A stretch of 46,600 nt of DNA. Source: Actinomycetota bacterium (GTDB lineage Bacteria; Actinomycetota; Thermoleophilia; RBG-16-64-13). The notes under the pieces were generated by a model. The model did no database searches, was not told the DNA's origin, and saw nothing but the letters and a program-made list of their open reading frames with translations. The position numbers were made by a program, and so were the translations under genes. This document shows, one piece after another, positions 26,837-46,050 of this stretch (within the stretch, counting starts at the first letter, position 1; the number at the start of each line of letters is the position of its first letter). The DNA lies in assembly GCA_018830645.1 (NCBI GenBank), contig JAHJSA010000094.1:1-46600 (forward strand), in the 5' to 3' direction.

Positions 26837-28312
26837 CTAGAGGCTGTAGTGCACTCGCAGGAAGCCGAGCAAGTGGTCGATGGATTTGAAGGCCCGCCGC
26901 AGATTACTGCGCTCCAGATCGGTCCAATCTTCGGGGTAGAAGAAGTGGGTGCTCTTCTGCCCATGGAACACCGTCTCTACGGAGGCCTGCAGCTTCAGGC
27001 GGAGGAACAGCTGGTGGGCGAACATCAGGTCCGCCGCCGAATCCCGCTCCAGCACACCTGCCGCTTCGAGGGCTTCGATGCGTTCGGTGGTAGAGGTGGG
27101 GAGGATCGCGTGTTCCATGGCGAGGGCCTTGACACCCGCGATCAGCGGCAGCATTCCGAACTTCTTGACGTTGATGCCGCGCTTGCCGTCGGCGTCCTTC
27201 TCGTATCTGAAGCGTCCTAGGAAGTTGAGGGGAACGGCTTTGCTCGTGGCGTCCTCGGCCAACAGGCGCATCGCGGGTGGGTTCCTCTGGATGCTCGACA
27301 TCATGTGTTGCCACAGGGAGTGGGTGAGCTTCTCGTCTCCGGCCAGATGACGCATATCGAGGAGTATCGTGAGGTCCCGGAGCACCTGGCCGCTGTAGCT
27401 GTCGACGACCAAGTTCGCGGTACGGCGGCGCCATTCCGTCAGGGTGCCGAAGTACTTGTCTTCCCGCGCCATGACGCCGCCATCGCACAGCTCGAAGCCG
27501 TAGTCCGCCATGTCCTGGTTCACGCGGCGGGCGAGCTCGCGGTAGTATTCGCGGGCCCGGTCGGAGTCGCACGTGTCGTCGAGGATGATGGCGTTGTCTT
27601 GATCGCCGCGCAACACCTGCTCGTGTCTCCCTTCTGAGCCGAACGCCACCCAGGCGAAGCCGCACCGAGGGACGGGCTCATCCTCGGCCCGGAGCTTGAG
27701 CTCGTTCACGAAGATGATGCGTCGCGAGATCGCGTCGTTGAAATCGGTGAGTATCTCGGCGAGGGTGGCGCCGCCTACGTCCACCAGGAAGAGGCGGTGC
27801 ACGAAGTCGTCGATCTCCTCGCGGACGCCCCTCAGTTCCTGCACGTTGTGTGCCTTGTCGACCTGGTCCATGATGATCCGATGGTCGTAGGCTTGAAAGC
27901 GCATGAGATCGCGCATGGAAAGGATCCCCGCCAGCTCGCCGGACTCGCGGACCACGATCAGTCGGCGGCACCTGCGCCGCATCATGAGCCCCACGGCCTG
28001 GAAGATGAAGTCCTCGGGCTCGATCACCACGGGAGGCGTCGACATGATGTCGCCCGCTGTGAGGTCGCGCGCGGCGGCGTCCGCGCTATCCGGCTCCGCG
28101 GCGACCACCTTGTACACGAGGTCGCGTTCCGTGACGATGCCGAGGGGACGGTCGTCTTCGTCGACCACGACCACGGAGCCGGTGTTCATGGATTTCATCT
28201 GCCGTGCCATGTGGGCCACGTGGGCGTCTACTCGGCAGGTGACGGTCGCCTGGGTCATGATGTCGCGCACCCGGGTCTTGTAGAAGATACCGGCGGTCTG
28301 CTGAGCGGTCAT
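26837..28312 (-). CDS. CBS-pair DUF294 nucleotidyltransferase-like protein
   Basis: A 491-residue protein. Two CBS motifs (residues about 15-135: VRDIMTQATVTC, GIVTERDLVYKVV; AGDIMSTPPVVI, AGILSMRDLMRF), then a DUF294 nucleotidyltransferase domain with AFGSEGRHEQVLRGDQDNAI (GS-x-x-R and D-x-D type motif, about residues 250-270), then the DUF294 C-terminal helical domain. The architecture resembles GlnD/uridylyltransferase relatives and is often found with SLC5 transporters and DnaQ-like exonucleases in other bacteria (from memory). ATG 28312 is preferred; GTG 28321, three codons upstream, has GGGGGG before it. It runs divergently from the gene at 28514. Confidence 0.87.
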   Translation of the reverse strand: MTAQQTAGIFYKTRVRDIMTQATVTCRVDAHVAHMARQMKSMNTGSVVVVDEDDRPLGIVTERDLVYKVVAAEPDSADAAARDLTAGDIMSTPPVVIEPEDFIFQAVGLMMRRRCRRLIVVRESGELAGILSMRDLMRFQAYDHRIIMDQVDKAHNVQELRGVREEIDDFVHRLFLVDVGGATLAEILTDFNDAISRRIIFVNELKLRAEDEPVPRCGFAWVAFGSEGRHEQVLRGDQDNAIILDDTCDSDRAREYYRELARRVNQDMADYGFELCDGGVMAREDKYFGTLTEWRRRTANLVVDSYSGQVLRDLTILLDMRHLAGDEKLTHSLWQHMMSSIQRNPPAMRLLAEDATSKAVPLNFLGRFRYEKDADGKRGINVKKFGMLPLIAGVKALAMEHAILPTSTTERIEALEAAGVLERDSAADLMFAHQLFLRLKLQASVETVFHGQKSTHFFYPEDWTDLERSNLRRAFKSIDHLLGFLRVHYSL

Positions 28313-28379
28313 GCCGGACACGGGCCCCCCTTGCGGGCCGCCACGGCCGCGCGGCAGCCATCGAGACGACTGTTCGGGC

Positions 28380-28385
28380 ATTCTA
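28380..28385 (-). promoter_or_regulatory. Possible -10 box of the CBS-DUF294 gene
   Basis: TAGAAT on the minus strand, about 68 bases before the start at 28312. Its -35 region falls inside the first unit of the adjacent 25-bp tandem repeat; no good -35 element is visible. Confidence 0.4.
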
Positions 28386-28392
28386 CCAGCAG

Positions 28393-28467
28393 GCGAGCGC
28401 AAGGCGGCAGGGGGCCTGCGAGCGGGAGGCGGCAGGGAGTCCGCGAGCGCGAGGCGGCAGGGGCAGC
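28393..28467. repeat. Three 25-bp tandem repeats in a divergent promoter region
   Basis: Units begin at 28393, 28418 and 28443, each starting GCGAGCG and sharing AGGCGGCAGGG. Period is exactly 25. They lie between the divergent starts at 28312 and 28514 and are not coding in either chosen gene model. Confidence 0.85.
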
Positions 28468-28499
28468 GGTGCATAGGCGGAGCGCCGAGGGCCCTGTGT

Positions 28500-38413: not shown

Positions 38414-39175
38414 GTGGAAGAACTCTGGGACATCCGGCGCGTTTCGCGTCTTCTCGGACTCTCCGATCGCACCGTCTACCAGATGGTGCGAGACGGCCGG
38501 CTGCCGGCCCTTCGCCTGGGGGGACGTTGGCGATTCCAGCCGCAGGAGGTCGAGAGCTGGCTGAGAGATCGCGCCGGCGCGGGGCCTCGTGACGACATCC
38601 AGCTCGATCGGCGCGGGCTCGAGGACACGCTCGGCCGGATCGAGGATCCATTGGAGAGACGTCTAGCCTTCGTCGCCCTCCTTGCTGTTGCCAGCACGGC
38701 CCGAGGGTGGCTGCCCCCGGTCGTGGTGGGCGGGCACGCGGTGGAGTTCTACACCGCCGGAGGCTACGCTACCGTGGACATCGACCTCGTGTCGGCCCAC
38801 GAGCCACTCGAGCAGGTACTCCCGGAGTGGGGGTTCGAAGCTCGTGGGCGTCATTGGCTGCACGAAGGTCTCGGCTTGGTGGTGGAGGCTCCCGGGTCCC
38901 ATCTCGACCCCGGGCAACGCGAACGTGTGACGCGTGTGGAGATCGCAGGCGCGACAGCCTACGTTCTTGGAGTGGAAGATGTCATCGTAGATCGCATGGC
39001 GGCGTGTGTCCATTGGCGCTCCGAGGAGGATTGTGGCTGGGCAGCTGTACTCCTCGATCTTCACGCCGCCCATCTGGATCTGGACTACCTTGTAGAGAGG
39101 GCACGCGCGCAAGAGGTAGAGGAGCGTTTGGCGACTGTCGTCGATGGGCTAGACGCGCCGGGTGATCCTTCGTGA
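38414..39175 (+). CDS. HTH (excisionase-type) domain fused to a nucleotidyltransferase-fold domain
   Basis: A 253-residue fusion. Residues 1-55 are an excisionase/AlpA-type winged HTH (LWDIRRVSRLLGLSDRTVYQMVRDGRLPAL, GGRWRFQPQEVESWL). Residues about 100-230 are a nucleotidyltransferase fold with VVVGGHAVEFYTAGG, then the D-x-D of TVDIDLV (about residues 118-122), as in DUF6036/AbiEii-like proteins. Such domains occur in toxin-antitoxin systems that modify RNA or proteins. The fusion of HTH and transferase in one chain, its own leaderless promoter and the overlapping small gene suggest a self-regulated module. Toxin activity is inference. Confidence 0.78.
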   Translation: MEELWDIRRVSRLLGLSDRTVYQMVRDGRLPALRLGGRWRFQPQEVESWLRDRAGAGPRDDIQLDRRGLEDTLGRIEDPLERRLAFVALLAVASTARGWLPPVVVGGHAVEFYTAGGYATVDIDLVSAHEPLEQVLPEWGFEARGRHWLHEGLGLVVEAPGSHLDPGQRERVTRVEIAGATAYVLGVEDVIVDRMAACVHWRSEEDCGWAAVLLDLHAAHLDLDYLVERARAQEVEERLATVVDGLDAPGDPS

Positions 39176-39568: not shown

Positions 39569-40231
39569 TCAGTCCCCGGAGATAGGCGCCGACAGCGCCG
39601 GCATGAAGCTCGGCCGTCCGTCCACCCGGACGCCCGCGGGCATCAGCAGTTGGTTCATCAGGTCCACGCACATGGCGTAGGCGGCTTCGAGGTCGAAGCC
39701 TTGGCGGTCGAAGAACCACTGGAGCACCAGGCCTTCCATCAGGCCGAGGAGCATGGAGCTGGTGCGTTGCACGTCTACCGGCCGGAACTCACCGCTCTTG
39801 ATGCCGTCCTGCACTATGCGCTCCATGTAGGTGCGGTAGGAGTTGTAGATGTCCTGCGTGTACTCCTGCACCTGGGGCGTGCGGATGGCCTGGGCCATGT
39901 AATCGATTACCACAGTGTAGTAGCGACGGGCGCGCTTCTCGTTCCCGAAGAGGTTGTTGAAGATCATCATGATCTTCTCGGGAGAGGAGGCTTCGGCCTG
40001 GCAGAAACCCTCGAAGTCGTGCGACAAGCGACTCACGATCAGGTCAAGCACGGCCAGGAACACGTCCTCCTTGCGGGGGAAGTAGTAGGAGATGAGGCCC
40101 TTACTCACGCCCACGCGCCCGGCGATGTCCGCCAGGGTCACCTGGTTGTAGCCCAGGTCCAGGACGAGGCGCAGCGTGGCATCGACGATCTCTTCGCGCC
40201 GGACGTCTTCCTTGCTCCGCGGTCGTGCCAT
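39569..40231 (-). CDS. TetR-family transcriptional regulator
   Basis: A 220-residue TetR regulator. The N-terminal HTH (residues about 10-55) reads IVDATLRLVLDLGYNQVTLADIAGRVGVSKGLISYYF, followed by FPRKEDVFLAVL. The C-terminal ligand domain (TetR_C-like) has ARRYYTVVIDYMAQAIRTP. ATG 40231 follows AGGGGAT. A palindrome 22 bases upstream is its likely own operator. TetR proteins next to ETF/SDR genes commonly sense acyl-CoA; this is inference. The gene is convergent to the small gene ending at 39420. Confidence 0.93.
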   Translation of the reverse strand: MARPRSKEDVRREEIVDATLRLVLDLGYNQVTLADIAGRVGVSKGLISYYFPRKEDVFLAVLDLIVSRLSHDFEGFCQAEASSPEKIMMIFNNLFGNEKRARRYYTVVIDYMAQAIRTPQVQEYTQDIYNSYRTYMERIVQDGIKSGEFRPVDVQRTSSMLLGLMEGLVLQWFFDRQGFDLEAAYAMCVDLMNQLLMPAGVRVDGRPSFMPALSAPISGD

Positions 40232-40252
40232 TATCCCCTGCCCTGAAGTCGT

Positions 40253-40274
40253 GTTGGTTGGTCGACCAGACAAC
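40253..40274 (-). promoter_or_regulatory. Palindromic operator upstream of the TetR gene
   Basis: A 22-base palindrome: GTTG-GT-TGGTCGACCA-GA-CAAC. The inner 10 bases are perfect and the outer four on each side match (18 of 22). It lies 22 bases before the ATG at 40231, where autoregulation by TetR-type repressors is usual. Confidence 0.6.
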
Positions 40275-40383: not shown

Positions 40384-42585
40384 TCAGTAGGCGATCCGAG
40401 AGTAGTAGGTCTGTTCGGCCGCCTCCCGCGCCTGGCGAAGGGTGTGGATGCCCTTGTCGGCGAGGAGGGGGAGCATTTTGAGAAAGGCTTCGCCGGTCAG
40501 GATGGCGTCACCCAGGGCGGTATGACGCCCTATCAGGCTCACACCCAGCCGTTCCGCGATCATTTCGAGCCGGTGGACCTCCTGGTTGGGGTGGATCACG
40601 GCGGAAAGCAGGAGTGTGTCGAGAACAGGGTTGATGAAGCGCACCCCGGTCTGTTCCTCCTTCATCTGGAGGAAGCGCATGTCGAAGGCCGCGTTGTGGG
40701 CGACGAGGACCGTCTCCTCGGCGAAGCGATGGAACTGAGGAAGCACGATATCGATGCTGGGCTGACCAACCAGCATGTCGGGCGTAATGCCGGTGATGGC
40801 GATCGAGGTGGGTGAGATCAGCCGATGGGGGTTGACCAGCTGATCGAAGGCTTCCGACTGGAGCAGTCTTCCGTTGACGATCCGTATGGCGCCGATCGAG
40901 ATGATCTCGTCTCCCTCGGATGGGTGGAGGCCCGTGGTCTCCGTATCGAACACCGTGTAGCTCAGCTGAGCCAGCGGAACTTCATCGAGCTGCGGGGTCT
41001 GTCCCGGCTGGTGGAAGAGGTCGAAGTCGTAGTACTCGGGCCGGCTTTCGCGTACCACCCGCACGTCCCAACCGGAGACGGGCTCCGTGACCGGCAGGAG
41101 CACGCGCACGTAAGCGGTTCCGCTGCTCGCGTCCATCTGGTGCCACACGTCACCGCCGTGGCGCTCGGCCACCTCCCGCAGCGAGTAGGGGTTGGTCCCT
41201 CCTCCGAGGTTCACCGGCTCGCTTTCCCAGCGTTGCATGGTCTCTACTCGTGGATTCATGCCCGACCACGTCATGTCCAATTGAGCCAGTCGCTCCCCTC
41301 GTTCAAGGCGCAGCCCGACCTCCGTCACCCCGCACTCCTCTCGCAGGCGACTGGCCAGGTAGCTCAGGGCACGAGCGACGGAGTAGCTGTCGATCTTCAG
41401 CCAAAGGGAATCGTCCACATCATCCGCCCGCGTGCCCATGGCCTGCGCGCTCTCGATCCGGCGTCGGATGAGTGCGATCAGATCGCGTGCCCGCATGTCT
41501 TCCAGAGGCCATTGGGTTCGCACGTGCTCGGAGAATTCCACCGCTCCCGCATCCAGCCTTCGACTCAGGGTCACGGCCTCGTCGCGGATAATCGTGCTGA
41601 ACCGCGCCCGTCGCTCGGCGGCCATCTCCGGGAATTCGAGGATGTTCTCGATGGCTGCCCGGATGCTTCCGAGGGAGGACCGAGTGGTTTCCATGAGGGA
41701 CTGGAGCAGGGCGTCGCGGCGGCCACCGAACTCGATGGCCCGCGTCATGTCCTCCAGCGTGAGCACGTAGCCCGTGATCGCCTGCTCGCGGTCCAAGACC
41801 GGCGCCATCTGGATGCGTATGAGGTGGTTCCCAGGCGCAGTGGTGACGAACTGTGAGATGAGCGTGGCTTCCTGGGCCTGAAGCAGGTGCTGGAGGTTCT
41901 GAAGACCGTGCAGGATGAGGTCACGGTCGATGACACTGAAGATGGAGCGCCCCAGACCGATGAGGCCTCCCGCCGGCGAGGACCGTGCGGGACCGTCGGC
42001 CTTGGAGGACGTCGCTTCTTCCGGGCCGTTCCCGCCCGTGGTGCTGAAGGGTGCTTCGGAGAGGAGGTGCTTGGCTCGGGAATTGTAGAGCAGAATACGA
42101 CCTTCGGTGTTGCACACTACGACGCCCTGGGTGAGCTCCGACATGAGGGCGGCCAGACGGTTCTTCTCCTCCTCCATGTCGGCTCGCGCCCCTTCGATCC
42201 TCGTCGTGACGGCGTTCTGCAGTTCTTGGTGGCGCTCGGCGAAGCGGTTCACGGCTCTCGCGAGCGCACGGAGCTCGGGCGTGCCGGCCGGATGTACCCG
42301 CCGGCCGGGGTTTGGGCCCAGGATCAGGTCGGTCTCGTCGACGAGGGCACGCGCTGCGATCACGTACCTTCTGAGTAGCAGCTCCACGAGCATTCCGAGT
42401 GAGAGCACCAGGAGTAGGCCGAGCATGGCCAGGACGACACCCTGGCGTGCCACGACCGAGCTCACGGTTTCCCGGTCGGCAGGCGGCAGTGCCGCGTAGA
42501 AGATGACCGCCGCGCCACCCAGGAAGACGAGGGCGCCCAGTACGGCGAGCACCAGAGTGACGAAAGATCGGCGGGCATGCTTCAC
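40384..42585 (-). CDS. Membrane PAS/degenerate-kinase protein fused to a DnaQ-like 3'-5' exonuclease
   Basis: A 733-residue protein. Two N-terminal helices (about residues 8-65), a HAMP-like linker, a PAS-like domain (about 150-290: LTQGVVVCNTEGRILLYN), then a DHp/ATPase-like region (about 300-500). Where the H-box would read SHELRTP it reads TRSSLGSIRA, and no N-box is visible, so it cannot autophosphorylate in the usual way. The C-terminal domain (about 542-720) is a DEDDh exonuclease: FDTETTG with Asp547, HNAAFDMRFL, and H-x4-D in HTALGDAIL. GTG 42585 overlaps the receiver gene stop (GTGA) with GGAGG seven bases upstream. It may turn a signal from the receiver into nuclease activity. Confidence 0.85.
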   Translation of the reverse strand: MKHARRSFVTLVLAVLGALVFLGGAAVIFYAALPPADRETVSSVVARQGVVLAMLGLLLVLSLGMLVELLLRRYVIAARALVDETDLILGPNPGRRVHPAGTPELRALARAVNRFAERHQELQNAVTTRIEGARADMEEEKNRLAALMSELTQGVVVCNTEGRILLYNSRAKHLLSEAPFSTTGGNGPEEATSSKADGPARSSPAGGLIGLGRSIFSVIDRDLILHGLQNLQHLLQAQEATLISQFVTTAPGNHLIRIQMAPVLDREQAITGYVLTLEDMTRAIEFGGRRDALLQSLMETTRSSLGSIRAAIENILEFPEMAAERRARFSTIIRDEAVTLSRRLDAGAVEFSEHVRTQWPLEDMRARDLIALIRRRIESAQAMGTRADDVDDSLWLKIDSYSVARALSYLASRLREECGVTEVGLRLERGERLAQLDMTWSGMNPRVETMQRWESEPVNLGGGTNPYSLREVAERHGGDVWHQMDASSGTAYVRVLLPVTEPVSGWDVRVVRESRPEYYDFDLFHQPGQTPQLDEVPLAQLSYTVFDTETTGLHPSEGDEIISIGAIRIVNGRLLQSEAFDQLVNPHRLISPTSIAITGITPDMLVGQPSIDIVLPQFHRFAEETVLVAHNAAFDMRFLQMKEEQTGVRFINPVLDTLLLSAVIHPNQEVHRLEMIAERLGVSLIGRHTALGDAILTGEAFLKMLPLLADKGIHTLRQAREAAEQTYYSRIAY

Positions 42586-42956
42586 GAGCCGTCCTCCAGC
42601 AGCTCTCTCACCCGCTCCACCAGGTCCTTGGTGGAGAAGGGCTTGGTGACGTAGGCGTCCGCTCCCAGAGCCAGCCCCTTCGTCGCCTCGATATCCCGGC
42701 CCTTTGCCGTCAGCATCACGATCTTCATCCCCCGCCATTCAGGGTTCGCCCTGATCGTCTGGCAGATCTCGAAACCGTTGCGGACGGGCATCATGACGTC
42801 GAGAAGTATGAGGTCGGGTTGGTACTCCGGCAGTTGGTCGAGCACCTCCTGGCCATCGCGGGCCACGCGCACGTCGTACCCGTTGTGCTCCAGGAGGAAC
42901 TCCAGGGAGGTGACGATATTCGGCTCGTCGTCTGCGATGAGGACTTTCTTGGCCAT
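42582..42956 (-). CDS. Receiver-only response regulator
   Basis: A 124-residue CheY-type receiver: IADDEPN at the N-terminus, phospho-acceptor Asp in LILLDVMMPVRNG (near residue 54), Thr in VMLTAKG and Lys in YVTKPF. There is no output domain. ATG 42956 follows GGAG. The frame is open five codons further upstream but that start lacks a site. It is sandwiched between the SLC5-kinase gene and the exonuclease fusion, whose start overlaps its stop. Phosphotransfer from the kinase to this receiver and contact with the exonuclease fusion are inferred. Confidence 0.93.
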   Translation of the reverse strand: MAKKVLIADDEPNIVTSLEFLLEHNGYDVRVARDGQEVLDQLPEYQPDLILLDVMMPVRNGFEICQTIRANPEWRGMKIVMLTAKGRDIEATKGLALGADAYVTKPFSTKDLVERVRELLEDGS

Positions 42957-42976: not shown

Positions 42977-45805
42977 TTACGTGTCGTGCTCGTCGGTCAT
43001 GTGCGCCGACGGCTCGGGCGGCGCCTCGGCTTCGCGCACCAACCGCCGCCCGTCAGCGTCGGCGCCGGCCGCCCCAGCAGGAGCCAGGGGCAACGTGAAA
43101 CTGAATGTGGAGCCCTTACCCGGGACACTCTCTACCCAGATCTCTCCTCCCAGGTGCGTGATGATCTGCCGGCTGATGGGCAACCCGAGTCCGGTCCCCT
43201 GCGGCTTTCCGGTGAGGGTATCCCCTGCCTGGCGGAACTTGTCGAAGATCACCTGTTGACCCTCGAGGCTGATGCCGGGCCCGTTGTCGCTCACGTCTAC
43301 ACGAGCCATGTCAGACAGGACGCTGACCCGGACGCCCACCCGGGAATCCTGCGAATCGCAGAACTTGACCGCGTTCGAGAGCAGGTTGATGGCTACCTGG
43401 ATCACTCGATCTCGGTCGGCGAGTACTCGGGTGGAATCTGCCGGTACGTCGAACTCCAGCATGGTCGGGCGTTCCGCGAAGAGGTGGCTCGTCGCGGTGA
43501 GCGACTCCTCCACCGCCGCGTGCAAGTCGATTTCCTGAACGTCCCAATCAGCCGTGCCCGACTCGATCTTGGCCAGATCGAGTACCTGGTTGATCAATCG
43601 AGTCAGCCGCTCGCTCTCCTTCACGATGATGTCCAGGTAGGCGGAGCGTTGCTCGACCCGCAGGTCGGGATGGTCGTGGAGGATCTCGGAGAAAGCCCGG
43701 ATGGAAGTGAGGGGCGTACGCAGCTCGTGTGAGATCGTGGAAACGAAGTCGTCCTTCAGCCGGTCGAGCTCCTGCAGCCGTTCATTGGCCGCGCGCAGTT
43801 CGGTGGTCGCCGCCTCGAGCTGCCGGGACTTGCGCTCCAACTCGTGGCTGTACGCGATCATTTGGGAGGCGTCGTCCAGCATGGTCATGACCTCACCGAG
43901 GTCGAGGGCCTCTTCCTTAGTGGCCGACGCCACCATTATGCGCGCCGAGGCCGCTCCGATAGTCCCCGCCAGAATGGTTTCGGCGAACTGCACGAAATCG
44001 GCGTCAGCCTCTATCCCAGCCCCTCTGGGCGCCCGTCGGCGACGCTGATAGTCGGTGAATGCCTCTTGGGTTCGGGCCGGGCCGAGGAAGCGGGAGACCA
44101 GCAGTTGCAGGTCTGGAACCGTCGCCGTACCCCTCCAGAAACGGGCCTGTTGTCCCTCGCCGGTGCGGCGGAAGACGTCGACGAAGAGGCTCGCTTGACT
44201 GTGCTCCGTGGCGCTCTTGTGTCCCCGCAGCGAGAGACCCACGTACAGCCCGACATTGGCCAGCATGCTCCAGATCATGGCGTGGGTGATCTGATCGAGA
44301 CCCTCGAGTCCGAAGAGTTGCAGCGGGCGAAGAAGTTCGATGCCGAAGGGACCGTGTTCCATGAAGGTCACGGGTAGCCAGCCGGAACGAGCGAAGGAGG
44401 GCAGAAGGAGCGTGTAGATCCAAACGAGGAAGCCCGCGCTCAGCCCGGCCAACGCTCCCAGCCGCGTCCCGCCTCGCCAGAAGAGACCGCCCAGGATGGC
44501 CGGGCCGAACTGAGCAACGGCCGCGAAACTGATCAATCCGATGGAGACCAGTGCGTACGCCTCGCCCGCGATGCGGAAATAGAGGTAGCCGAGGATCAGT
44601 ATCAGCACGATGGCCCCGCGCCGGATCCCCAGGAGCAGGCGGGTGAGATCGGCCCGCGTGGTCAACTGGAGGGGCCTGAAGCGCAGCAGCACCGGCATCA
44701 CGAGGTCGTTGCAGACCATGGTGCTGAGCGCGATCGTCTCCACGATCACCATGCCGGTGGCGGCGGAGAGCCCTCCGATGAAGACCAACATCGCCAGCAG
44801 ATTCTGTTGGTTGGCCAGGGGGAGGGCAAGGACGAAGAAGTCGGCGTCGACGCTCTGGCCGCGAAAGGCCAGCAAGCCGGCAAAGGCGATGGGCAGTACG
44901 AAGATGTTGATGGCCAGCAAGTAGAGCGGAAAGAGCCAGATGGCCTTGTTGAGATGCTTCTCGTCCACGTTCTCGACCACCGACACCTGGAACTGCCGGG
45001 GAAGGAACATGATGGCCAGCATGGAGAGAAAGATCAGCCAGAACCAGCTGCCGTAGGACCCGGTGATCTCCCCGAAGGTGAGCATCGGCCGAAGGTCAGG
45101 CACTTCCATGGCTCGGCTGAAGATGTCGCCGAAACCGTCGTACAGTCCGTAGGTGACGAATACGCCCACCGCGAGGAAGGCCAGCAGCTTGACCAGCGAC
45201 TCGAAGGCGATCGCCGCCACCATTCCTTCGTGGCGCTCGGATGCGTCCAGGTGGCGGGTGCCGAAGACGATGGTGAAGGCGGCCAGGAGCATGGCGATGT
45301 AGAAGGTGGTGTCTCCCCAGAAGAAAGGCACATTCTCGGACGACGGCAACGTGATGCTCGGGTAGTGCTCGAGGATGATGAAGCTGCTCGAGATCGCCTT
45401 GAGCTGCAGGGAGATGTACGGGACGATCCCGATGACCGCGATGATCGTCACGAGCCCCCCGAGGCTGGGACTCTTGCCGTAGCGGGACGAGATGAAGTCG
45501 GCGATGGAAGTGATCCGGTAGGCCTTGCTGATGCGGATCATCTTGCGGAGCACAAACCACCACACAGCGGCCATCAGGGTAGGGCCCAAGTAGATGGGAA
45601 GGAAGCCCACTCCACTGCTCGCCGCACGCCCCACACTGCCGTAGAAGGTCCAGGAGGTGGCGTACACGGCCATCGAGAGGGCGTAGATATATGGGTTGGC
45701 GATGATGCTCCGGCCGGAGTCGGCGCGCTTGTCGCCCCAGTACGCGATGGCGAACAGCACGCCCAGGTAGGCCGAAGCCAAGAGCACGATCACCCAACCC
45801 TGCAC
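42977..45805 (-). CDS. SLC5 transporter-STAC-histidine kinase (CrbS-like)
   Basis: A 942-residue sensor. Residues about 1-540 form a sodium:solute symporter domain with about 13 helices (IYALSMAVYATSWTFYGSVG, RITSIADFISSRYG, MFLPRQFQVSVVEN). A STAC domain follows (about 560-600, LLVSRFLGPARTQEAF), then a coiled stretch and a kinase core with His693 (ISHELRTPL), N-box INLLSNAVKF, DNGPGIS, FDKFRQ and GTGLGLPIS. This is the CrbS/MxtR layout, in which a transporter-like sensor detects a small carboxylate such as acetate. GTG 45805 follows GGGGGG by five bases; the longer frame upstream is spurious. It heads a coupled signalling operon. Confidence 0.93.
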   Translation of the reverse strand: MQGWVIVLLASAYLGVLFAIAYWGDKRADSGRSIIANPYIYALSMAVYATSWTFYGSVGRAASSGVGFLPIYLGPTLMAAVWWFVLRKMIRISKAYRITSIADFISSRYGKSPSLGGLVTIIAVIGIVPYISLQLKAISSSFIILEHYPSITLPSSENVPFFWGDTTFYIAMLLAAFTIVFGTRHLDASERHEGMVAAIAFESLVKLLAFLAVGVFVTYGLYDGFGDIFSRAMEVPDLRPMLTFGEITGSYGSWFWLIFLSMLAIMFLPRQFQVSVVENVDEKHLNKAIWLFPLYLLAINIFVLPIAFAGLLAFRGQSVDADFFVLALPLANQQNLLAMLVFIGGLSAATGMVIVETIALSTMVCNDLVMPVLLRFRPLQLTTRADLTRLLLGIRRGAIVLILILGYLYFRIAGEAYALVSIGLISFAAVAQFGPAILGGLFWRGGTRLGALAGLSAGFLVWIYTLLLPSFARSGWLPVTFMEHGPFGIELLRPLQLFGLEGLDQITHAMIWSMLANVGLYVGLSLRGHKSATEHSQASLFVDVFRRTGEGQQARFWRGTATVPDLQLLVSRFLGPARTQEAFTDYQRRRRAPRGAGIEADADFVQFAETILAGTIGAASARIMVASATKEEALDLGEVMTMLDDASQMIAYSHELERKSRQLEAATTELRAANERLQELDRLKDDFVSTISHELRTPLTSIRAFSEILHDHPDLRVEQRSAYLDIIVKESERLTRLINQVLDLAKIESGTADWDVQEIDLHAAVEESLTATSHLFAERPTMLEFDVPADSTRVLADRDRVIQVAINLLSNAVKFCDSQDSRVGVRVSVLSDMARVDVSDNGPGISLEGQQVIFDKFRQAGDTLTGKPQGTGLGLPISRQIITHLGGEIWVESVPGKGSTFSFTLPLAPAGAAGADADGRRLVREAEAPPEPSAHMTDEHDT

Positions 45806-45861: not shown

Positions 45862-46050
45862 CTACCTCTCGATTATGGTCGCCATGAGGCCGATCAGGGC
45901 CGCCCAGGCAGTGAAGAGGTAGACGTAGAGAAGCGGGATATCCAGTACCGTGACGTAACGGCCGAACAGAGACAGCAACGGGTAGTTGAAGAGCAGACAG
46001 CCGAGGAAGAACAGGGCGGCCAGGTTCTGGCTCTTGGTTCCACGCTTCAC
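45862..46050 (-). CDS. Small two-helix membrane protein upstream of the CrbS-like sensor
   Basis: A 62-residue protein with two predicted helices (NLAALFFLGCLLFNYPLLSLF and LYVYLFTAWAALIGLMATII) and a basic N-terminus, ending in IER. GTG 46050 is preceded by AAGGT nine bases upstream. It lies 56 bases before the sensor gene. Small partners of this size accompany SLC5-type transporters and sensors in other bacteria. The role as a subunit is inferred from position. Confidence 0.7.
   Translation of the reverse strand: MKRGTKSQNLAALFFLGCLLFNYPLLSLFGRYVTVLDIPLLYVYLFTAWAALIGLMATIIER

Follow-up and report, generated by a model that had tools for sequence, protein, structure and literature searches.

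Exonucleases of the DEDDh type were found to be linked to DUF294 nucleotidyltransferases, and in one conserved, unstudied family, rather than in an oddity of a single genome, such an exonuclease ends a membrane protein that contains a degenerate histidine kinase core. The link is the main new result of this analysis and is of stronger novelty than the architecture itself. The fused protein (P0002, 733 aa; 40384..42585, minus strand) was identified in the window, by which we mean the whole stretch of 46,600 nucleotides that was analysed. An earlier note had read it as a sensing receptor with nuclease output, an interpretation that holds as far as sequence can tell; the widespread family, a module of SLC5 transporter and histidine kinase for carbon acids, and the tie to DUF294 go beyond that note.

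The 733-codon frame runs from a GTG at 42585 to a stop at 40384 and is nested in a longer one whose ATG lies at 42738. In the letters GTGA this GTG and the stop codon of the receiver gene before it overlap, which makes 42585 the likely start. The chain, encoded throughout on the minus strand, comprises two membrane helices, a HAMP-like coil, a PAS domain, a pseudo-histidine kinase and the exonuclease. The membrane helices (about residues 8–31 and 47–73; 42367..42564) were placed by hydropathy, with hydrophobic segments at about residues 4–36 and 40–77, and correspond to helices 2–31 and 35–89 of a structural model. They are followed by a HAMP-like or coiled-coil helix (residues 90–149; 42139..42318), supported by a weak Pfam HAMP match (E 0.04) and a long helix at 103–149 in the model, and by a PAS domain (residues 150–280; 41746..42138) with a Pfam PAS match just under the cut-off (3.6e-4), a mixed alpha/beta fold in the model and a low-complexity insert at 178–206 with pLDDT below 50. 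The pseudo-DHp helices (residues 281–351; 41533..41745), defined by alignment and model, and the pseudo-CA domain of HATPase fold (residues 356–500; 41086..41520) precede a linker, SRPEYYDFDLF (residues 514–524; 41014..41046), and the DEDDh exonuclease domain (residues 540–732; 40390..40968; Pfam RNase_T E 1.7e-36), in which the catalytic residues are complete. The full-chain structure prediction that the earlier note had proposed was made with AlphaFold2 from a 56-sequence alignment (mean pLDDT 83; pTM 0.42, domain placement uncertain) and showed two membrane helices, a long helix, a PAS-like fold, two DHp-like helices, a CA-like domain and the exonuclease. Chance or an assembly artefact was rejected in view of 82 more relatives, almost all of them full-length, with 35–56 % identity. 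The residue counts below refer to an alignment of 83 sequences. In this alignment the linker shows 98 % mean identity, the highest anywhere in the chain, and alphaproteobacterial short forms keep it before the exonuclease as YDFxL or FDFDL; this conservation is accounted for by none of the explanations proposed so far.

The kinase-like core is homologous to the core of the histidine kinase encoded two genes upstream, with which hhalign paired it at a probability of 98.5 (E 3e-15). Folded alone, the pseudokinase reached pLDDT 84; its CA-like part matched the PrrB CA domain (Z 15.7, 134 residues, 2.6 A), and the DHp and CA parts together also matched whole kinase cores, including DivL (4q20, Z 12.9). 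The position of the phospho-accepting His is occupied by E299 (41689-41691, minus strand). Of the 83 aligned relatives, 70 have Glu there, 12 have Asp and one has Gln, and none carries a His anywhere at positions 296–302. Retention of Glu or Asp at this site throughout the family resembles a fixed phospho-like state. When the neighbouring kinase was aligned to the pseudokinase, its boxes NLLSNAVKF, DNGPGI and GTGLGL fell on YLASRLREE, WSGMNPR and NPYSL, and the N-box Asn, DxGxG and GxGxG looked for in the pseudo-CA domain were all absent. The earlier note had claimed that the phospho-accepting His and the N-box are missing, and both losses were borne out; the HATPase active site is thus not intact. 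An intact kinase was ruled out, the phospho-His and the N, G1 and G2 boxes all being missing while the fold is retained. The region is nevertheless conserved, with Trp395, Trp440, Trp453, Arg475 and Arg494 invariant, and conservation despite the lost boxes indicates that it has been maintained and kept for a role.

In contrast to the kinase core, the exonuclease domain looks catalytically competent, and nuclease activity would be predicted from its residues. The three motifs DTETTG (547–552), HNAAFD (630–635) and HTALGD (688–693) lie where the DnaQ-type assignment had put them, and D547, E549, D635, H688 and D693 are invariant in all 83 relatives. Of the two outcomes by which the earlier note would have been refuted, an intact HATPase site and unconserved exonuclease residues, neither was observed. 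The closest fold match was the PolC exonuclease (Z 24.4, 194 residues, 1.9 A), DnaQ also being matched (Z 21.6) and the E. coli Cap18 exonuclease appearing among the fold matches; a profile comparison with the Thermotoga PolC exonuclease gave 1.6e-46. None of the PolC- or UvrC-linked family models reached its own cut-off on the window exonuclease. A prophage origin, or one as a defence gene of the Cap18 or CRISPR DEDDh kind, was considered and rejected, the PADLOC matches being to the generic exonuclease domain only; the DUF294 protein and the transporter-kinase matched no PADLOC defence model, and the locus context consists of carbon-acid genes.

A census of the architecture, likewise suggested in the earlier note, yielded at least 394 confirmed candidates in a scan of a genome collection, so the fusion is not confined to this genome. 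Eighty of these were kept, mostly from Rhodocyclales and Burkholderiales with others from Competibacter, Thiothrix and Chloroflexota, and plasmid records added Cupriavidus and Paracoccus. The fused protein is rare in the phylum of the window, which the frequency of UvrC-exonuclease fusions suggests is Actinomycetota; there it was present in three of 296 genomes (the window genome and those of loci L004 and L005). The exonuclease domains of fused proteins form one clade (support 97/96, and 99/98 in a second tree), and the window copy falls among the proteobacterial members, its exact position being without resolution. In the second tree, which is unrooted, the clade of long fused forms groups with the short forms from Alphaproteobacteria (95/82) and is separate from most exonucleases that stand alone. 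The alphaproteobacterial membrane forms (479–659 aa) consist of a PAS-like part, a kinase part that is eroded or absent, the YDFxL-type linker and the exonuclease. In searches of the literature on kinase-exonuclease fusions, on DUF294 with exonucleases and on SLC5/STAC proteins with exonucleases, with partial coverage of subscription papers, the fused protein was undescribed.

In its conserved operon the exonuclease gene is preceded, in this order, by genes for a small membrane protein, a fused SLC5 transporter and histidine kinase, and a receiver-only regulator. In the window the first of these is a 62 aa protein without a Pfam family (45862..46050, minus strand), in the position of CbrX, and a counterpart was present in 58 of 83 loci. 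The second joins an SLC5 (SSS) transporter-like domain to an intact histidine kinase (42977..45805, minus strand, with GTG 45805 chosen as the start); the SSF match of 22.8 bits is just at the cut-off, and HisKA and HATPase_c were matched at 7.5e-21 and 5.6e-28. The third is a 124 aa receiver-only response regulator (42582..42956, minus strand; Response_reg E 3.3e-31), translationally overlapped with the exonuclease gene and devoid of any output or DNA-binding domain. Among loci with enough flank, a receiver was found upstream of the exonuclease in 76 of 79 and a transporter-kinase in 69 of 73. At least one of DUF294, Acs, ActP/DUF485 and a VC_2705-type symporter was near the exonuclease in 82 of 83 loci. 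In the annotation of Paracoccus denitrificans PD1222, around WP_011751332.1 on plasmid 1, a DUF294-type protein, a small protein, an ATP-binding protein, a response regulator and an exonuclease domain protein stand in a row. The 'sensing scaffold' and 'nuclease output' of the earlier note fit an operon whose sole other regulator is a receiver without output, and that receiver may be what controls the exonuclease.

Several other features of these neighbourhoods were recorded. Directly downstream of the exonuclease gene and on the same strand is a TetR/BetI-like regulator (39569-40273, minus strand), which was absent from the other loci examined. Beyond it, a 253 aa protein (38414-39172, plus strand) combines an excisionase-type HTH with a DUF6036 nucleotidyltransferase-like domain and gave a weak match to mad1 of MADS defence, over the HTH only. 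On a P. yeei plasmid (L162:5904-8209, plus strand), a receiver and a short exonuclease form follow acs-DUF485-actP-DUF294, with no adjoining histidine kinase. Two ORFs of locus L033 that had been taken as neighbours had no Pfam match and are probably not genes.

The only DUF294 protein of the window genome, a CBS-CBS-DUF294-DUF294_C nucleotidyltransferase (26837..28474, minus strand), lies 12 kb from the exonuclease operon and outside it. It has an intact GSxGR...DxD motif (GSEGRHEQVLRGDQD), DUF294 being a CBS-linked, GlnD-like nucleotidyltransferase whose DUF294_C part belongs with GlnD/GlnE-type helical domains (PMC3710099). Of 79 genomes that encode the fused protein and were tested, 78 had DUF294, vs a background of 31 % (44 of 143 genomes of the class); a Fisher test gave a value of the order of 1e-26, to be read with the caution that related genomes are not independent. 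Where a genome with the fused protein had no DUF294 gene nearby, one was carried elsewhere in 26 of 27 cases.

Sampling was also reversed, DUF294 genes being chosen regardless of the fused protein and then checked for a DEDDh exonuclease in the gene group. An exonuclease stood beside DUF294 in 8 of 15 cases in the phylum of the window, adjoined it or shared its chain in 28 of the 40 sampled from the class to which Thauera belongs (one in the same chain), and stood beside it in 13 of 14 plasmid cases from Alpha- and Gammaproteobacteria, Bacillota and Bacteroidota (Hymenobacter by annotation only). The paired genes mostly abut and share a strand. For rough comparison, the 1.28 Mb around fused loci contained one further exonuclease match. 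About one-third of the sampled DUF294 genes were without an adjoining exonuclease; some of these sequences end nearby or contain a second DUF294 gene. A natural fusion (L238:3325-5424, minus strand) places exonuclease, CBS, CBS, DUF294 and DUF294_C in one chain of 699 residues. Four stand-alone loci of the window's phylum carry DUF294, exonuclease, DUF485 and ActP in that order, followed in three by Acs. Pairs were also seen adjoining sugar, pectin/alginate and glycoside-hydrolase genes (L159:2319-6566, L163:3904-6496 and L157:3318-5928, all on the plus strand), and the pair is therefore not confined to acetate loci.

The nearest studied case is that of Pseudomonas putida PP_0353 and PP_0354. 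There, an operon targeted by MxtR/ErdR encodes PP_0353 (RNase_T) together with PP_0354, a CBS protein that is a direct target of ErdR, and PP_0353, MxtR, ErdR and ActP-I are needed for normal growth on pyruvate by a mechanism the authors could not name; they tested for DNA scavenging by PP_0353 and did not find it (PMC9927547). A P. fluorescens homologue of DUF294 type, with cAMP-binding, CBS and nucleotidyltransferase domains, was predicted to act by nucleotidylation (PMC5715377). As in the window, a DEDDh exonuclease and a CBS protein, here targets of MxtR/ErdR (= CrbS/CrbR), are tied to acetate or pyruvate use and to ActP; unlike the window protein, DUF294-linked exonucleases of this kind are short and soluble, without membrane, PAS or kinase parts. 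Orthology with soluble exonucleases of the PP_0353 type was unsupported by family cut-offs: against NCBIfam PRK09145 (cut-off 189 bits) the window protein scored 79.5 bits, whereas the DUF294-linked exonuclease of P. aeruginosa scored 256 bits.

The upstream genes resemble those of the SLC5/STAC kinases CbrA and CrbS in that transporter and kinase are fused, and a small membrane protein precedes the fusion as in cbrXA; CbrX forms a hairpin of helices that binds CbrA at its SLC5 domain (PMC13022988). The partners differ, CbrB being a sigma-54 transcription factor and CrbR of LuxR type, whereas the window has a receiver-only protein and the pseudokinase-exonuclease. The pseudokinase shares with Caulobacter DivL a histidine-kinase fold, a replaced phospho-His and a receiver-only partner. 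DivL, which reads DivK, ends in a part that is kinase-like and has its phospho-His replaced by Tyr; the window family has Glu or Asp there, and its chain goes on to an exonuclease. PolC-type and DnaQ proofreading domains share fold and catalytic residues with the window exonuclease, which by contrast is joined to a receptor and is without a polymerase or replication context. Reversible nucleotidylation by GlnD and GlnE likewise resembles what we propose below, in that a GlnD-like nucleotidyltransferase is opposed by a removing activity; there, however, the removing part is an HD or a second NTase domain and not a DEDDh nuclease. That of GlnE is also treated in PMC12663964.

We see an even chance that the pseudokinase-exonuclease acts as the effector in a two-component module that contains an SLC5 transporter and responds to small carbon acids, with the exonuclease opposing DUF294. 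The SLC5-histidine kinase would sense acetate, pyruvate or a like acid and, judging from its intact motifs, phosphorylate the receiver-only protein. The phosphorylated receiver might then dock on the dead DHp/CA core, by analogy with phospho-DivK on the pseudokinase DivL, and this docking, together with the protein's own PAS and membrane segments, would set the activity of the C-terminal exonuclease. Gene pairing and the natural fusion suggest that DUF294 may add nucleotides to a shared target from which the exonuclease removes them. The likeliest single target would be a nucleotidylated uptake or activation protein (the symporter, its small subunit or Acs), with an RNA 3' end second and nearly as likely. 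An active, regulated exonuclease in carbon-acid signalling is probable, and we lean, with less assurance, towards its being a direct functional partner of DUF294. That it erases a mark left by DUF294 falls slightly short of an even chance, and that the mark sits on a protein is doubtful. The eraser idea is chemically reasonable because pNP-TMP, in which a nucleotide is joined to an aryl group much as in a tyrosyl nucleotide, is hydrolysed by a DEDDh enzyme (PMC6390093), and RNase Z, a ribonuclease, acts as a deAMPylase on proteins (PMC12663964). Against our main reading, all known enzymes nearest to the exonuclease domain act on DNA or RNA. The accessible text on P. putida also weighs against it, in that loss of PP_0354 gave no growth phenotype on the carbon sources reported there (PMC9927547), as do the DUF294 genes without an adjoining exonuclease and the 12 kb that separate DUF294 from the operon in the window. 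In relatives from Alphaproteobacteria the kinase part is eroded or lost, so docking of the receiver on it cannot be general.

Among other explanations, the protein may be a signal-controlled RNA 3' exonuclease by which mRNAs or sRNAs of carbon metabolism are trimmed or destroyed at the membrane, while DUF294 would be an independent regulator that happens to lie in the same operon. The domain is of RNase_T type, and mRNA decay is what the P. putida authors propose for PP_0353 (PMC9927547); the nearest enzymes by sequence and fold are nevertheless the DNA proofreading exonucleases PolC and DnaQ, and the recurrent adjacency and fusion with DUF294 would be left unexplained, so that we regard this account as unlikely. 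The same PolC similarity, matches to PolC- and UvrC-linked families and the occurrence of the genome's other such exonuclease domain in a UvrC-type fusion would suit an enzyme of DNA maintenance, in proofreading or repair, with an incidental fusion to a kinase relic. Here, however, the linked models all score below their cut-offs, signalling and carbon-acid gene order is uniform at 82 of 83 loci, and the fused form is one clade, which makes such a role very improbable.

A nucleotide second messenger that DUF294 or a different synthase makes, an oligonucleotide in linear or cyclic form, and that the exonuclease degrades, is brought to mind by the resemblance of the NTase and DEDDh pairing to nucleotide-signal systems, by the Cap18 fold match and by the CBS or cNMP-binding domains that many DUF294 proteins bear. 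Yet DUF294_C is GlnD/GlnE-like and not a known part of an oligonucleotide synthase, and no gene that could encode an effector of the messenger was encountered; we judge this quite improbable. Finally, a domain already joined to one pseudo-enzyme could itself be a second, binding without cutting, but the invariance of its five catalytic residues across the 83 relatives leaves this extremely improbable. The most far-reaching reading is that of a widespread DUF294/DEDDh writer-eraser pair for the reversible nucleotidylation of some component of the uptake of small acids, the eraser in this family being coupled by way of the dead histidine kinase to a two-component sensor with an SLC5 transporter; in this complete form it is tentative and rather doubtful.

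Databases label the fused family only as 'exonuclease domain-containing protein' or 'DNA polymerase III subunit epsilon', and a writer/eraser link between DUF294 and the exonuclease was made in no paper that we found. The family would present an exonuclease as a conserved two-component output in cultured, tractable bacteria such as P. denitrificans PD1222. The pairing and fusion with DUF294 make the pyruvate phenotype of PP_0353 testable, through the questions of what DUF294 targets and whether the exonuclease undoes it, and hint at an unstudied on/off switch operated by adding and removing nucleotides. If this is true, a nuclease of DNA-proofreading type would serve as a two-component output acting on a protein mark, and a new regulatory modification of carbon uptake would operate in many environmental bacteria, including wastewater genera.
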